NCBI RefSeq assembly: GCF_006861795.1
Contig: NZ_VDGH01000001.1
Coordinates: 190,117 to 254,116, forward strand
From: Psychrobacillus lasiicapitis
Lineage (GTDB): Bacteria; Bacillota; Bacilli; Bacillales_A; Planococcaceae
Reading direction: 5' to 3'
DNA: 64,000 bases
The position numbers and the translations under genes were made by a program. Positions 722 through 9,137 of the stretch are shown here, one piece after another. The notes under the pieces were generated by a model. The model was not told the DNA's origin. It made no database searches and worked only from the letters and a program-made list of their open reading frames with translations. Position 1 is the first letter of the stretch. Every line of letters begins with the position of its first letter.

Positions 722-3700
722 TTAACTAGTTTGCTCTAAGCATTGATAAACGGACATCATATCTCGTTTATTTAATTCACGAATACGATAGAAGATCGGA
801 ATATCTGCGACTGCTTTTGTATAGAAGTCAGCAGCAACGACGTCACTTACTTTTCCAGTGAGCCATGTTTCGACAGGGATGCCTTCGACCACTTCCTGAA
901 GTCCTTCCTCATTGATGCCGCTTGCATTACAGCTTACGCAGGGTATCGTTAATTTAAATACGCCATCATGGAGGTTTTCTTCTGTGATGGCTTTCTTCCC
1001 TTTACAAAATGGACAGGGCTGGCTTTTTTTAATTTTATTAATTTGGGTAACTAATTTTTTATATCCAAACGCTTCATACACATAGGTCAGTTTCTTGTAT
1101 TTTCCATTGGTGAAATACTGATCTATGATTGTTTCTCTTGTTTCATTGATGGTAGGAAAATCGCAGATGGTCACTTGGTTATGTTTACTGATGGATTCGA
1201 TATTGTCTTTGATTGAGTCCCAGAATGGCAAGACATTTTGTAAAACCATTTCATAGCCTGTAAAACTTGCTAGCTCTAGCTCCAGTATTTTCAAGGCGAC
1301 TTGTGTTTCCCTAGGAAGTAGAGAGACGTCTTCCGTTAATACCATATCTCCGCCAACTATGGATTTCACTTTTTCTAGTTCAGGTAAGTTCCCTACTGTT
1401 TTTATCACTTCATCAAGTGGTTGCTGAATAATCTCTCGGATATCCGTGTCACCAAATGGGAGTTTTTTATGATGGTTTAACACGGTGCCATGACAAATCG
1501 GACAGGTGATTTTTTCTTTAGAATCTTTCATTTGCTCTTTAATCATGGATTTTGAAATGACCATATACATGCCAAGGATCGTATTAAAGCCTACCCACGT
1601 TCTACGCGCCTTGCCTTTCTTGTCATAAAAAGACTTTTCAAAATACCCATACCAAAACGTATGCTTTTCATCCTCCGACATTTCATTGTAGCTTTTTGTC
1701 AGATCATGACCGAGCTCATTTTTTAATTCTTCAAATACAAATTCTAACTTAGAGTATTGATAATATTTTAATACTTCCATGACTTCCGGATATAATAATC
1801 CATCCCAGAAGGGAACATTTTTGTCCTGTATCACAAGCTCTTTATCAAATATTTCAATCACAAGACGTCCCGAGCAAGATGGGCAATGATTGTCCGTAGT
1901 AAAGAAATCAAAGCTTTTCGTATCTTTATTCGTCGGATGCAATGCTACGATATGATTGACCAGACCGCCAATTTCATAAAGAAAACTATATTGGCTATAT
2001 AAATGTCTTTCAAGGTCAATAGCAATGACAGGCGCTATTTTATTGGATTGGTATTCACTATAAATCAAACGAGCCATGGAGGATAAACTTTTTAAAATAC
2101 CACCCTTATAGATATTTTCTGCATTTTTAAAATAATCGATAGGCTGCTCTTCCAAGTAATGAATACCCGTTTGTTGCTTTAGTTTGGAAGAAATAGGTGA
2201 TGGAGTAGTGGCCTCCGCTCGATTATGATGTCCATAATAATCATCATGACTAACAACTTCTAGATGCTTCACAGGTGCAAGCTGTCTTTTACCAAAATCA
2301 ACGATAAAATCAGCGTTCTCCATCATATAATCATTATGCTCAATCATCAAGATAGAGACCGATTCATCTTGTAAAATTTCCCTGACACTATCAATGAATT
2401 GGTTTAAAATATTTTGAGATAATCCTTTTGATGGCTCGTCAAATATAAAAAGTGTATGAGGATTTCTCGAGTTAGCAAACAGCTCCGATACTAAATGTAC
2501 ACATTGAAATTCACCAGTCGATAAGGTTTGTGTTTTTCTATTTAAAGTCAAATAACCAAGGCCTAATTTGATGAGTAAGCTTAATCGTTTATAGGCGATA
2601 TCTTCACTTGGCAATTCATCAATAATATCTTCAATTGAACGCTCGAAAATATCATCCATATCCTCCTGGTATTTGGTGAGTTTCTTTTTTATATCTAGAA
2701 AAGTGGCCACGGTTGACCGACTTGTAATCGATTGGTTTCGATCTTGGCCTACCATTACTAGCTTATCTTTTGGATATCGATTCAGAAAGTCTTTGGCTAT
2801 GCACTCATTCACCAGGGTGGATTTACCGCATCCTGACTCGCCTGTAAAGGTTACCAGTCTATTTTTCGGTATTTGAATCTCCTCTATTTGAATATTACGA
2901 CAGTATAAATCATGAAATTGATAGTAATCTGTCGGTTCTTCTGTATTTCTTTTGATATGGACTGGTTTTGGACGTGGTGATTCTTCTACAATTTTGCCAC
3001 CATATTTACCGCTACCGGGACCAAAGAATAATTGCTCATCTGTTAAATCAAGCACTGTGTCAGAATGGTCAATGAGCCAAATCTGATTCTTATAGCCTAG
3101 TTGTGTGATCTCTTCTAAAATTTTTAGTAATGTTTGGTGGTCGAGACCCACGGATATTTCATCAATTATAATAACCGTATTTTCACTTGTGGCCATAAAT
3201 TCAGCCAAGTAAAGACGTGTTAATTCTCCACCTGACAATGTCCCCATAATTCGATTTAACGTTAAATATCCGATATTCATATTAATTATGTTTCGAAGAA
3301 TATTTTGCTTTCCTTCGCTTAAGTTTAAAACTTCTGCTTGTGAAAGAATGGATTCAATACTTAGGTTGTTGATATCGGAAATATTATGTAACTCATCGAA
3401 TAACTCCATCGTATATTGGAGGACTTCTTCGTTATAGCGTGTGCCTTCACATGTCGGGCATTCGACGTTTTTGGTATAACCGCGTCCTTTACATTTTGGA
3501 CACCAGCCTAATTCATTATTGAACGAGAACACTTCTGGAGAAAGATTGAATTTATTGGCAAGACATTCCCGAATTTCTGTAAAAGCACCAGTATGAGTAC
3601 CAATGGTTGAACGTGGATTGGAAGAAATAGAGGATCTTCCGAGAAATAGTACTAATGGCATTTCCTCCATCTTGATAGCGCTGAAGTTAGTTTCCATAAT

Positions 3701-3892
3701 ATTAGGAAATAAATATTGATATTCTGCTTTTGGTAATAGGGAAACGAGACGCTTTTTAGATTCTTCCCCTACGGTTTGACAAAATGTTGTTTTACCAGAG
3801 CCGGACAAACCTGCAATTCCTAACGATTTATCTGTTGGTAATTCTGCATCCAATCTATATATATTGTTCGCAATGAGTTGTTTTACTTTCAT
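722..3892 (-). CDS. UvrA-like ABC ATPase with long C-terminal extension
   Basis: A soluble twin-ATPase of the UvrA family, here 1056 residues against about 940-960 for housekeeping UvrA. Walker A motifs are GLSGSGKTTF (residues 28-36) and GESGCGKST (351-359). ABC signatures are LSGGEL and the divergent LSTGEF. A zinc module CPKC...CPTC lies at about 131-148. After about residue 600 there is an extra region of roughly 450 residues with further paired-cysteine motifs (CPSC, CPIC, CPFC, CVSC) but no Walker A. UvrA proteins recognise DNA lesions with UvrB; divergent paralogues have been linked to drug resistance, and the partner here is unknown. Start chosen at MKVKQL because GAGGGGAG lies 9 bases upstream; a 13-codon longer frame has no such site. 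Probably not the housekeeping uvrA, since no uvrB is adjacent and the signatures diverge. Confidence 0.8.
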   Translation of the reverse strand: MKVKQLIANNIYRLDAELPTDKSLGIAGLSGSGKTTFCQTVGEESKKRLVSLLPKAEYQYLFPNIMETNFSAIKMEEMPLVLFLGRSSISSNPRSTIGTHTGAFTEIRECLANKFNLSPEVFSFNNELGWCPKCKGRGYTKNVECPTCEGTRYNEEVLQYTMELFDELHNISDINNLSIESILSQAEVLNLSEGKQNILRNIINMNIGYLTLNRIMGTLSGGELTRLYLAEFMATSENTVIIIDEISVGLDHQTLLKILEEITQLGYKNQIWLIDHSDTVLDLTDEQLFFGPGSGKYGGKIVEESPRPKPVHIKRNTEEPTDYYQFHDLYCRNIQIEEIQIPKNRLVTFTGESGCGKSTLVNECIAKDFLNRYPKDKLVMVGQDRNQSITSRSTVATFLDIKKKLTKYQEDMDDIFERSIEDIIDELPSEDIAYKRLSLLIKLGLGYLTLNRKTQTLSTGEFQCVHLVSELFANSRNPHTLFIFDEPSKGLSQNILNQFIDSVREILQDESVSILMIEHNDYMMENADFIVDFGKRQLAPVKHLEVVSHDDYYGHHNRAEATTPSPISSKLKQQTGIHYLEEQPIDYFKNAENIYKGGILKSLSSMARLIYSEYQSNKIAPVIAIDLERHLYSQYSFLYEIGGLVNHIVALHPTNKDTKSFDFFTTDNHCPSCSGRLVIEIFDKELVIQDKNVPFWDGLLYPEVMEVLKYYQYSKLEFVFEELKNELGHDLTKSYNEMSEDEKHTFWYGYFEKSFYDKKGKARRTWVGFNTILGMYMVISKSMIKEQMKDSKEKITCPICHGTVLNHHKKLPFGDTDIREIIQQPLDEVIKTVGNLPELEKVKSIVGGDMVLTEDVSLLPRETQVALKILELELASFTGYEMVLQNVLPFWDSIKDNIESISKHNQVTICDFPTINETRETIIDQYFTNGKYKKLTYVYEAFGYKKLVTQINKIKKSQPCPFCKGKKAITEENLHDGVFKLTIPCVSCNASGINEEGLQEVVEGIPVETWLTGKVSDVVAADFYTKAVADIPIFYRIRELNKRDMMSVYQCLEQTS

Positions 3893-3965
3893 AGTGCTCT
3901 CCCCTCTATTTGATAAGTTTAGTGTTGCCACAATAGTAAAATTTCAATTGAAAAGCTGAGAAATA

Positions 3966-5951: not shown

Positions 5952-5974
5952 GCATCCTATATTAAATTAAACTT

Positions 5975-6288
5975 TATCCCGCATTAACGGGCAGTAGGAC
6001 TCCCACTTCAAGATTGATGAAAAGCAAAAAGATAAGTGGGAGATCAACTGCCCGTAAAAGCCCGATGAAATGTATCGCAGACTAAGTACGCAACATCGTG
6101 TTGCTCCTGCGTAAAGCTCGTCGCAAAATAAAAGAGTGTTTGCAACGTCTGCGTGACCTACATCGTGTAGGCCTCAACTAACAATTAGTGGGGGATGAAC
6201 GGACTAAAAACGCGACGTCCATGTCGCGACGTCCGCACTAACACGACCTGTGCGTCGAAAAACCCCCACTGATTGAAGTTTCTCTTTA
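5975..6288. repeat. MITE-like structured repeat, copy 1 (near full length)
   Basis: About 314 bp beginning TATCCCGCATTAACGGGCAG and ending TGATTGAAGTTTCTCTTTAT. Both ends are flanked by TTTAT, a possible 5-bp target duplication. Inside are several imperfect stems: GGACTCCCACTT with AAGTGGGAG nested within ACGGGCAGT/AACTGCCCGT, and a large stem whose outer arms are AGTGGGGG and CCCCCACT. Near-full copy 4 lies inverted at 38871-39182; shortened copies are at 26850 and 34200. The right end overlaps the TAA stop of the exported peptide gene. I find no open frame inside. Confidence 0.85.
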
Positions 6289-6420
6289 TAAAAAGGAAGT
6301 GTGATCGATAGATGTAGGTCTAGGAACTTCGTCTTCTGCAAGATTAATAGCGGATGTTGTAAAACTCAAGGACAAGATCAAGGCGAAAGATAACCATATA
6401 AATACGTTTTTCTTTTTCAC
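6286..6420 (-). CDS. Candidate exported signalling peptide precursor (PapR/NprX-like)
   Basis: An unannotated 44-codon frame immediately after the XRE-TPR regulator. It starts at GTG 6420, one base after the regulator's stop codon, and is preceded by GGGAGGA located in the last codons of the regulator (8-base spacing). The product has a Lys-rich start (MKKKN), a hydrophobic core at about residues 6-20 (VFIWLSFALILSLSF), a likely signal-peptidase site near TTSA, and a polar tail ending in PRPTSIDHTSFL. This is the usual design of RNPP pheromone precursors: export, trimming to a C-terminal oligopeptide, re-import by an oligopeptide permease, and binding to the TPR domain of the adjacent regulator. 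Role, mature sequence and import are inferred; the ORF, ribosome site and position are seen. Confidence 0.75.
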   Translation of the reverse strand: MKKKNVFIWLSFALILSLSFTTSAINLAEDEVPRPTSIDHTSFL

Positions 6421-6421
6421 T

Positions 6422-7729
6422 TTATAAATCCTCCCAATTCGTTATAAAATTTTGTTTGTATAGCATTTGAATAGCTTGTTGATAATATAAATTTGCTGCC
6501 TTAAACTTACTTTCTTTAAAGTAGTAATTCGCTAGTAGAATGGAATACTTTTGAACATGCCGGTCGTCATGAATTAATTTAAAATAGTCAATCCCTCTCT
6601 TTAATACTACTTCCAAGTCATCTGTTGAAGAGTAACATGCTCTATAAATGTCTAAATGACAAGAATAAGATCGATTTTCAATACTGAATTTATTCTCCAA
6701 GTTCTCGATGACTTCAAAGCCTTTCTTGCACCAACTAAGGACCTCCACATGGTTATTTTGCTTAGAATATTCCTTGATGATGGAAAGAATAGATATTAAA
6801 TATCCTTCCGCATTATCATTTTCTTCTTTACTTTTCAAACTTAGCTTATAATACTCAATTGCCTTCTCTTGATTTGCTTGGACTGCATATAATGAGCCTA
6901 TATTTTGATAGATCATCCCTTCATAATGTACAACTTTATAGTCTATCACCAGCTTTTTGGCTAGATTATAATTTTTTTCTGCTTCCTCGTATCTTCTCAT
7001 TTTTTTATGAGCAACTCCCATAACGATATAGCTATCAATAGCTCTTTCGAATAGAAGATTGTCTTTATAGTAGCCTAACGATTTTGAAGCGTGATTAATG
7101 GTGTTAAAAAATTGATTGCATCTAAAATAAATCAAGCTGAGTACATTGTGAAAATCTGCTATTTCCCATTCTTCATTGGATACATTATTTACAAACTTCA
7201 CAGAGCTCTCTAATCTGTTTAACGCTTTATAATAGTCGCCATTCAAGTAAAAATACAGACCTATATTTAAATTTCCTAAAAATCTTTGTTTCTCATCAAA
7301 ATCATTTTCTGATTTTATTATCACATCAAATATGGATTGTAAAACCTCTGTCTTTTCGTTCAATATTAACATTAATCGAAACATATACAGGTTGTAAGTA
7401 TAGAAATTTTTTAGCTGCAAAAAGTAACTATTTCCAATCGTGTACTTCTCCAGTGTTTCTCTAATCCATTTCTTATCCCTTTGCATGACTGCTCTTTTAT
7501 ATTCCTCATAAAAAGCTTCTATGAACTTCTTTTCCTCTTCGCTCGGTAATTTTTCTATCTCCAGGTTTAACCTTTTCAACAGAGAAGTGATCACTTCCTC
7601 GCTTGGAACAGTTGAATTATTCTCGATTTTACTGAGATAGGAAGTAGAACAGATCCCTTTTGCCAATACAGACTGTTTGATTTGTTGGTTTAATCTCTCT
7701 TGCTTGATGGTATAACCTATACTACTCAT
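6422..7729 (-). CDS. XRE-family HTH regulator with TPR sensor domain (RNPP-like)
   Basis: A 435-residue cytosolic regulator. The N-terminal XRE helix-turn-helix spans about residues 3-60 (GYTIKQERLNQQIKQ...STSYLSKIENN). The remainder is helical TPR-like repeats, for example AIDSYIVMGVAHKKMRRYEE and MIYQNIGSLYAVQANQEKA. The length and layout fit Rgg/PlcR/AimR-type receptors that bind a short peptide through the TPR domain. It is followed at once by a small exported-peptide gene, the standard partner arrangement. Start at ATG 7729 or the GTG at 7738; GGGTGGG lies just upstream of the ATG. Divergent from a SigO-like operon over a 0.5-kb gap. The specific subfamily is not determined. Confidence 0.85.
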   Translation of the reverse strand: MSSIGYTIKQERLNQQIKQSVLAKGICSTSYLSKIENNSTVPSEEVITSLLKRLNLEIEKLPSEEEKKFIEAFYEEYKRAVMQRDKKWIRETLEKYTIGNSYFLQLKNFYTYNLYMFRLMLILNEKTEVLQSIFDVIIKSENDFDEKQRFLGNLNIGLYFYLNGDYYKALNRLESSVKFVNNVSNEEWEIADFHNVLSLIYFRCNQFFNTINHASKSLGYYKDNLLFERAIDSYIVMGVAHKKMRRYEEAEKNYNLAKKLVIDYKVVHYEGMIYQNIGSLYAVQANQEKAIEYYKLSLKSKEENDNAEGYLISILSIIKEYSKQNNHVEVLSWCKKGFEVIENLENKFSIENRSYSCHLDIYRACYSSTDDLEVVLKRGIDYFKLIHDDRHVQKYSILLANYYFKESKFKAANLYYQQAIQMLYKQNFITNWEDL

Positions 7730-7738
7730 TTTTCCCAC

Positions 7739-8233
7739 CCCTTTGCACTTAGTACATATATTAGTTCTTTATGAAAAGTAAGAAACCTTTAACAATCGCT
7801 CGACCTATTACGACAATAAGCATAGAAAAGGGTTCCGTGCGGTGATCAACAAGTTTAATATATAGATATGTCTGCCATCCAAAAAATATTATATATTATT
7901 AAAATTTCCTTCTTTTACGAAACTAGACGAATTTCAATAAAAATAAATATAAGTAATAAATGATATTTCCCAACTTATTTTTGTTCTAAAAACGGGTATT
8001 TTTTAGTAATATTTAGGAAAGAACAATTACTTTTTACTAAATATTACTTCATCTTCATTATACCACATAGAGCATAAAGTCCTGATGCAATTATTAAAAT
8101 TTTCAGATAAAGGTTGTTAAAAACAAAATGTAATCCCCTTTATAGGACAAGACATATCTTCCCCGGGATACAACACATTATTTTTCACACGCCAAATCAG
8201 AACGAAGATTCTTATTTGTGAAGGAGTGACAAA
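7739..8233. promoter_or_regulatory. Divergent intergenic region with 12-bp inverted repeat
   Basis: About 495 bp of AT-rich DNA between the RNPP regulator (minus) and the SigO-like gene (plus). A perfect inverted repeat AGTAATATTTAG (8005-8016) / CTAAATATTACT (8037-8048) lies in it. It could be an operator for the regulator or, less likely, a hairpin. A PlcR-type palindrome is not present; only a half-like TATGAAAA occurs near 7765-7775. No other gene is seen. Confidence 0.5.
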
Positions 8234-8746
8234 ATGGGTTCCGAAAAAAAGAAAATAATACAAGAATTTCTAAAATGTCCTTATAACAAAACGTTATTTG
8301 AAGAGTTCCAATCTACTAACTCAGAAGAAGCAAAACAAAAAATTGACTTGAAATTTAAAAAGTATTATCAAAATTACAGAATTCTATCCTATCTTATTAA
8401 AGTTTTGCATTATGAGAGTAAGCATTTTGATCATAAGATACGAACTTATAAGCATAGATACCAATTAATCGTTACAAATGATTTAGAAACACCAATTTTT
8501 TTCGAGAAATCATATTCTGATTCAATTGATTGTTCGAAAGACATTGAGGATCATATATCTAACGAAAAATTATTTACTTGTTTTAAAACACTAACAGCTA
8601 GACAAAAAGAAATACTGTCACTTGTTTATGTAAGGCAAATGACAGATAAGGAGATTGCTCAATATTTAGGGATTACTCAACAAGCTGTCTCTAAGACTAG
8701 GAAAAATGTTTTAAAAAAAATTAGAAAGGGGATTACTCATGATTGA
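8234..8746 (+). CDS. SigO-like RNA polymerase sigma factor
   Basis: A 170-residue protein whose C-terminal third is a clear sigma-70 region 4: FKTLTARQKEILSLVYVRQ followed by an HTH in TDKEIAQYLGITQQAVSKTR (about residues 115-165). The N-terminal part is Lys-rich and lacks a strong region 2 signature. The downstream partners YvrJ and an RsoA-like small protein suggest a split sigma factor like Bacillus subtilis SigO-RsoA, where SigO supplies region 4 and RsoA supplies a region 2-like surface. Ribosome site AAGGAG 7 bases before the ATG. Its stop overlaps the yvrJ start. The SigO relationship is inferred from context and domain content; UviA/TcdR-like sigma factors are an alternative. Confidence 0.7.
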   Translation: MGSEKKKIIQEFLKCPYNKTLFEEFQSTNSEEAKQKIDLKFKKYYQNYRILSYLIKVLHYESKHFDHKIRTYKHRYQLIVTNDLETPIFFEKSYSDSIDCSKDIEDHISNEKLFTCFKTLTARQKEILSLVYVRQMTDKEIAQYLGITQQAVSKTRKNVLKKIRKGITHD

Positions 8747-8912
8747 TGCAGGGAACATTGTACCTTTAATCGGCAACTTTGGCTTTCCAATTGTAGTATC
8801 TATTTATTTGTTACACCGTTTTGAAAATAAAATAGAATCGCTTGAAAATGCCATCCACAGCATTGAGAATGTAGTTAATAGTAGTATGGATAAAAGAAAA
8901 GGAGGTGAATAA
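8739..8912 (+). CDS. yvrJ: YvrJ family small membrane protein
   Basis: A 57-residue frame overlapping the sigma factor's last codons by 8 bases, with AAAGGGG upstream. Residues about 8-26 form one transmembrane segment (VPLIGNFGFPIVVSIYLL), followed by a charged helix (RFENKIESLENAIHSIENV). The motif NxGFPIVVxxYLLxRFE is characteristic of the YvrJ family, which in Bacillus subtilis sits beside sigO-rsoA. Function is unknown. The next gene's ATG follows its stop directly, so sigma factor, YvrJ and the 74-residue protein form one operon. Confidence 0.8.
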   Translation: MIDAGNIVPLIGNFGFPIVVSIYLLHRFENKIESLENAIHSIENVVNSSMDKRKGGE

Positions 8913-9137
8913 ATGGACGAAACGGACATTCTCGCAATTTTAAAACAGCTAGAGCCCAAAATGCAAAGTGTTTTATTTCAAACAAGCAATGATTACAGAG
9001 AAGACTTAGAACAAGATTTAAAAGAACGTATGATTAAAATTATAAAAAATAATATCAATCTTGAAGTCCCAGGTTTTTTTGACTTCATAGGAGAAGAACA
9101 GATGCAAGACTATTCCGGAATGCTAACGAGGTGCTGA
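8913..9137 (+). CDS. RsoA-like small protein, candidate sigma co-factor
   Basis: A 74-residue protein starting right after the YvrJ stop, with AAAGGAGGTG 6 bases upstream. The central helix DYREDLEQDLKERMIKIIKN resembles the start of sigma region 2 and the helix found in RsoA, the 79-residue partner of Bacillus subtilis SigO. If so, it would bind the beta-prime coiled coil of RNA polymerase and act with the SigO-like protein. This is an inference from length, motif and operon; no homology search was possible. Confidence 0.5.
   Translation: MDETDILAILKQLEPKMQSVLFQTSNDYREDLEQDLKERMIKIIKNNINLEVPGFFDFIGEEQMQDYSGMLTRC

Follow-up and report, generated by a model that had tools for sequence, protein, structure and literature searches.

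A candidate peptide quorum-sensing pair of the RRNPP kind facing a SigO-RsoA-like operon in Psychrobacillus

In a stretch of 64,000 nucleotides from Psychrobacillus lasiicapitis (NCBI RefSeq assembly GCF_006861795.1, contig NZ_VDGH01000001.1, positions 190,117 to 254,116 of the forward strand; here called the window), two neighbouring genes on the minus strand encode a regulator with helix-turn-helix (HTH) and tetratricopeptide repeat (TPR) domains and, directly behind it and in the same direction, a small propeptide of exported type, whose Shine-Dalgarno sequence lies inside the regulator gene. Judged from sequence, the two genes very probably constitute a peptide quorum-sensing pair of the RRNPP kind, most like NprR-NprX. 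The original prediction had proposed a peptide communication system whose active ligand would be a C-terminal piece of the propeptide. The first part is upheld by the conservation of the pair, by purifying selection and by the RRNPP-type sequence, predicted fold and invariant asparagine of the receptor, whereas the C-terminal ligand is not.

The receptor gene and the small frame behind it

The regulator gene (6422..7729) starts with ATG and spans 435 codons, or 438 from an alternative GTG at 7738. Its product matches the Pfam families HTH_3, of the XRE type (2.1e-8), and TPR_12 (2.3e-11), both above their cut-offs, and also the PlcR profile (2.6e-9). RRNPP receptors are chains of 250-500 residues whose TPRs bind the peptide and which usually carry an HTH at the N-terminus, and they are accompanied by an adjacent exported propeptide of 10-100 residues; the window holds a receptor of 435 residues and, a single base behind it, a propeptide of 44. 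The model predicted for residues 62-435 adopts an NprR/Rap-like fold, with RapI and NprR as its closest folds, and the combination of an HTH with a nine-TPR fold is the build of NprR. Residue N276 is the likely counterpart of the asparagine that anchors the peptide backbone (Asn227 in RapF), a placement read from the alignment with Rap3T at YNLG/QNIG and by analogy with RapF Tyr226-Asn227, not from an alignment with RapF itself. It is invariant in all 30 regulators of the two Psychrobacillus clades, A and B, described below, and N-[LIVM]-[GA] occurs in this region in 108 of 110 regulators across the family.

The regulator shares 97% identity with its counterpart in Psychrobacillus sp. NEAU-3TGS, and its ratio of nonsynonymous to synonymous differences (pN/pS) over 18 orthologs is 0.27. 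The own genome contains no second match at E 0.001. A mobile-element or phage origin was considered and rejected: viral contigs yielded no close relative in a search sensitive to close relatives only, phages gave only partial matches, and among the plasmid records listed (20 of 27) identity was at most 31.3%. The TPR part does match, at 7.2e-27, a PHROG family whose function is unknown; therefore, distant phage kin of the regulator exist.

The propeptide frame (6286..6420) begins with GTG, comprises 44 codons and translates as MKKKNVFIWLSFALILSLSFTTSAINLAEDEVPRPTSIDHTSFL; only base 6421 separates it from the regulator stop, in agreement with the predicted start two bases after that stop. Its Shine-Dalgarno sequence GGGAGGA (6429..6435) lies within the last codons of the regulator, Trp-Glu-Asp-Leu (WEDL), 8 bases ahead of the GTG, and is found in 19/19 clade-A loci. 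A Lys-rich start, a hydrophobic core of 15 residues (VFIWLSFALILSLSF) and a polar tail follow, all as originally described, and it is on this composition only that we judge the propeptide to be exported. The signal-peptidase-like TTSA that had been pointed out is present in the window but is not conserved as such, relatives reading TTNTSNIAEEE, TSTFAEEE and similar. Searches with the 44-residue peptide matched no Pfam family and returned nothing from the PDB. Its reading frame is under constraint in the 18 orthologs: the propeptide as a whole has a pN/pS of 0.51, and the +1 and +2 frames over the same DNA are open in none of them.

Directly behind the propeptide gene, and reaching its stop codon, lies a repeat of about 313 bases (5973-6289), which contains the sole Rfam match, a Bacillaceae-1 RNA (RF01690, 52 bits, 6066-6171). 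Of 68 listed matches of this repeat in the own genome, itself included, 26 span 305 or more of the 331 bases of the query. The near-identical locus L002 has the same peptide end, behind which stands what seems to be another form of this repeat family, placed differently.

Conservation of the pair and the place of the pheromone

A search of the genus found the regulator in 18 of 19 Psychrobacillus genomes, the own one included, with G004 lacking it. Clade A consists of 18 orthologs including the window, the others being 60-97% identical to the window regulator, together with L019 at 48%; clade B contributes 11 loci read out of 12, at 27-29% identity. Of 14 weaker places (E 5e-19 to 2e-5) one was read, and G018:C1 is the clade-B place outside the set. 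A small frame of the same build stands directly behind the regulator in all 19 clade-A loci, and it carries neither frameshifts nor nonsynonymous scrambling, as the original prediction would have it. Clade B bears out the same expectation in 10 of its 11 loci, which pass a rule requiring a small exported frame behind the gene, but not in L023 (G001), where the regulator frame is open but a stop interrupts the peptide frame that follows.

Across the family, own genus included, the regulator is matched at E 1e-40 or better in 78 of 261 genomes and 11 of 19 genera. Of 110 loci with a homologous regulator, 82 pass the peptide rule, among them 53 of the 80 beyond clades A and B; of 290 ends of other long frames in the stretches read, 2 do so. 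Having been devised after the peptides were seen, the rule gives counts that serve as a contrast and not as a blind test. One control match, L191 (G177, near 9069, minus strand), is an exported-type frame, MKKKVLMLCLILSLAVFAPSMNHAYASDYSTHGLGGTDVGPPHTRG, immediately after a second homolog of the regulator, a more distant one. The family-wide places G203:C1:2803496, G145:C2, G086, G179:C10:1826864 and G074, outside the clade-A/B set, were left out. In the regulator tree, clade B has a support of 1.0 and clade A a weak one of 0.38, and because of the latter the deep order of the tree is not used for any claim. That the small frame is a real conserved feature of the locus and more than a chance coincidence is confirmed at the sequence level by its presence in 19/19 clade-A loci, by the closed shifted frames (0/18), by the pN/pS of 0.51 and by the contrast of 82/110 with 2/290.

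Where in the propeptide does the signal lie? The constrained part is an internal core, E-E-x-P-R-P-T-S-(I), which reads EDEVPRPTSI in the window (6307..6336, minus strand; codons 29-38). Over these ten columns pN/pS falls to 0.30, the signal part having 0.56 and the tail 0.50, and P-R-x-T is invariant in 18/18 orthologs. The residues that follow differ in both sequence and length (DHTSFL, YYTSFL, EYSSFI, GNSFI, SGNTN and others). Moreover, the clade-B paralog L021 (G008, minus strand) encodes, directly behind its regulator, a propeptide with five tandem units of QDKP[D/E]ITS[I/T]N. Because the core is constrained, the end variable and the core of L021 repeated five times, the most likely form of the mature signal in Psychrobacillus is, as far as sequence can tell, an internal P-[RK]-[PIV]-T-S-(I) peptide, and the C-terminal 5-8-mer that had been favoured as the active ligand was rejected. 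Internal pheromones as well as C-terminal extensions are known from Rap systems (PMC11343458). PRITSI or PKITSI appears in several relatives from a different genus. A strict P-x-[PIVLM]-T-x pattern fits only 46 of the 82 rule-passing tails, and an acidic or Asn residue at most four positions before a proline is present in all 82 (shuffled tails: mean 58, maximum 69 of 82).

By the rule, 28 regulator loci lack a peptide, and 20 of them sit in two runs of neighbouring tree leaves. The first run comprises seven loci (L082, L084, L097, L107, L110, L114 and L117), which are tandem copies adjoining a peptide-bearing copy; for L082 and L097, whose stretches end early, L057 and L054 give a wider view, likewise without an exported frame there. 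The second run holds 13 (L092, L100, L103, L118, L123, L127, L132-L135, L138, L139 and L141). Receptors without their own peptide are called 'eavesdroppers' in surveys (PMC9765709), and both runs are candidates for such receptors by their gene content.

The facing operon and competing explanations

How might the pair exert its effect? We envision that, as growth ends, regulator and propeptide would be co-transcribed from a promoter of sigma-H-like type, for which AAGG-N18-GAA[C/T]T upstream of the regulator (7763..7789, minus strand) is the candidate. This pattern, formulated after seeing the alignment, occurs in 18/18 orthologs and 0/11 clade-B loci, and it resembles the sigma-H consensus. 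The Sec pathway would then export the propeptide, and trimming would yield a pheromone of 6-8 residues that contains the internal P-R-P-T-S-(I) and not the extreme C-terminus. Uptake might proceed through an oligopeptide permease; the own genome has 14 SBP_bac_5 matches, which indicates only that candidate importers exist. Bound in the TPR groove, the pheromone would alter the oligomer state of the receptor and its DNA binding within 7730-8233, perhaps at a palindrome, and would thereby switch the divergent operon and perhaps also transcription of the pair itself. With the divergent operon as target, these last two steps are plausible, doubt slightly prevailing.

That operon lies on the plus strand and encodes a SigO-like protein of 170 residues with a C-terminal sigma-70 region 4 (8234..8746; Sigma70_r4, 1.7e-11), a holin-like small protein of the YvrJ family with 57 residues (8739..8912; Pfam YvrJ, 2.8e-18; phrog_4898 holin, 3.6e-7) and an RsoA-like protein of 74 residues corresponding to the sigma region 2 half (8913..9137). 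The last matches the RsoA family NF041489 at 9.6e-8 with 32 bits, below the cut-off of 100, and better the hypothetical family NF010682 with 48.6 bits, below the cut-off of 86. Between pair and operon lies the candidate operator palindrome TTCTAAAAA-N7-TTTTTAGTA (7984..8008), which is partly conserved and is adjoined by a TTTCCCAA block kept in the 15 loci of groups A1 and A2. Closer to the operon, an alignment of eight A1 intergenic regions reveals a conserved promoter-like block, GGTTGTTA ... CCCCTTTATAGGACAAGA (8111..8155, plus strand), with a related GTTGTAAA ... CCCTTTATA in the three A3 loci. A sigma-70 promoter scan was uninformative (18 sites, 18.3 expected). A Spo0A box before the regulator is not claimed: TGTCGA or AGTCGA occurs in 14/18 orthologs but is absent from the window.

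Does the receptor act on this operon directly, or does the pair signal to a target elsewhere, the operon having stayed adjacent by chance or through a common promoter region? Three observations weigh against direct control. By raw count, the exact CTAAA-N11-TTTAG is present in only 11/18 intergenic regions (A1 5/8, A2 5/7 and A3 1/3, there at another place), and for this reason we give the operon less weight as a direct target. Pattern searches of the own genome for a second operator stayed at or below the reversed control (8+3 against 7+7; 5+9 against 13+15), one further exact match falling inside a gene (L173), and a genome-wide operator was accordingly rejected, matches being no more numerous than in that control. 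Finally, no YvrJ, SigO-like or RsoA-like gene was found in a further 21 stretches, 6.7-13.4 kb long, which comprise L161 and 20 loci from outside the genus (0/20 for the latter). Against a mere neighbour speaks the persistence of the arrangement: the YvrJ gene faces the regulator in 18/18 clade-A orthologous loci (the window and L144-L160), although the SigO-like and RsoA-like genes flank it in only 11/18 and the gene content on the far side of the pair changes from species to species. Since the 18 orthologs share ancestry, 18/18 does not amount to 18 independent observations. On balance, a target elsewhere is quite conceivable, if short of probable, and direct control of the facing SigO-like/YvrJ/RsoA-like operon, which we propose from the gene arrangement, stands just below even odds.

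The role of the two products themselves could also be different. Conceivably, the receptor is mainly Rap-like, or bifunctional in the manner of NprR, binding Spo0F and delaying sporulation when free of peptide, with DNA binding secondary or lost. The fold model, with RapI and NprR closest, suits this idea, a Spo0A match above the cut-off is present, and of the Spo0F contacts reported for RapH, namely Q47, F58, E137 and Y175 (PMC4970707), F58 and E137 correspond by our reading of the alignment to F117 and E189 and Y175 conservatively to F227, E189 being invariant in 30/30 clade-A/B regulators. Q47, however, has no placed counterpart, clade-B proteins lack the equivalent of F58, and the HTH is retained, with 20 of the 49 columns invariant among the 30 regulators falling within residues 1-54; we consider a mainly Rap-like role unlikely. 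A secreted peptide with another job, bacteriocin-like or conferring immunity and merely sharing the operon of the regulator, would agree with the exported type of the frame and with the holin-like YvrJ protein encoded opposite. Yet the tails, short and acidic, hold a conserved core instead of an extended folded or helical part, homologous regulators of other genera are followed by the same arrangement with differing tails, and tandem core repeats as in L021 suit a pheromone precursor, all of which makes such a job very improbable.

Returning to the quorum-sensing pair, its fullest version would have an NprR-kind pair directly control a sigma factor of two subunits, SigO-like and RsoA-like, along with the holin-like YvrJ protein, use an internal P-[RK]-x-T-S code shared with variations throughout the family, and be listened in on by several peptide-less clades. 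We regard this combination as rather doubtful; if true, cell density would set an alternative-sigma switch.

Elsewhere in the window, the minus strand at 722-3931 encodes a UvrA-like protein of 1069 residues, which scores 266 bits against a UvrA family cut-off of 1147 and has a weak UvrA_DNA-bind match just under the cut-off.

Relation to known systems

The pair appears from its sequence to belong to the RRNPP kind and to be NprR-like in build. It had been put forward as new, which holds for the member and not for the kind, since many such pairs have already been surveyed (PMC10075063, PMC9765709), with NprR-type receptors reported in 21 genera (PMC9765709) and 21 novel candidate RRNPP subfamilies (PMC10075063). 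No published Psychrobacillus pair is among the literature matches listed; the words 'Psychrobacillus' and 'Planococcaceae' are absent from the main texts of PMC10075063, PMC9765709 and PMC12700828, a check of main texts from which we do not claim absence from print. What the present analysis adds is a wide and coherent collection of peptide pairs, 82 loci by the rule, that is open to testing and lies outside the well-studied Bacillus groups; its conserved internal core predicts the letters of the pheromone. It also puts a quorum-sensing receptor face to face with a SigO-RsoA/YvrJ-like module, an arrangement maintained throughout the genus.

The SigO-RsoA split sigma factor seems to share with the facing operon the separate sigma-4 and sigma-2 proteins, and YvrJ is also common to both; here, the three genes stand in one row facing a quorum-sensing pair, and the RsoA match is below its family cut-off. 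With PlcR-PapR the window pair has in common the HTH-TPR regulator, the profile match and the gene order, PapR being encoded behind PlcR. The PlcR chain, however, has 293 residues and belongs to a five-TPR clan (PMC12700828), whereas the window protein has 435 and an NprR/Rap-like fold, and it thus lies outside the PlcR subfamily as so defined. The Rap proteins of the Rap-Phr systems (RapI, Rap3T, Rap105) are described as lacking an HTH (PMC9765709), which the window protein has. We make no assignment for or against AimR (arbitrium), a phage-borne receptor with a fold of its own.

A similar layout is seen in a plasmid pair of Priestia koreensis FS-1, 28% identical over 425 alignment positions, with an exported-type peptide ending in EEEFPEPTVAQVLI directly behind; it differs in being plasmid-borne and in its neighbours. 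Two NprR-NprX systems are reported on plasmids of this strain (PMC10075063), and the locus compared here is presumably one of them. NprR of the Bacillus cereus group is only 19% identical to the window receptor in the superposed TPR part. Its pheromone, SKPDIVG (PMC5641580), shares KPDI with the clade-B repeat of L021, whereas the window core is PRPTSI with a variable tail behind and the proposed target of the pair is the divergent SigO-like/YvrJ/RsoA-like operon. The rule by which a cluster is named (PMC10075063) applies to its best hit and sets the minimum at 30% identity to the reference receptor, with 80% mutual coverage. Because the pheromone differs and identities of 19% and 28% leave that rule undecided, we describe the pair as NprR-like and do not claim membership in the NprR subfamily.
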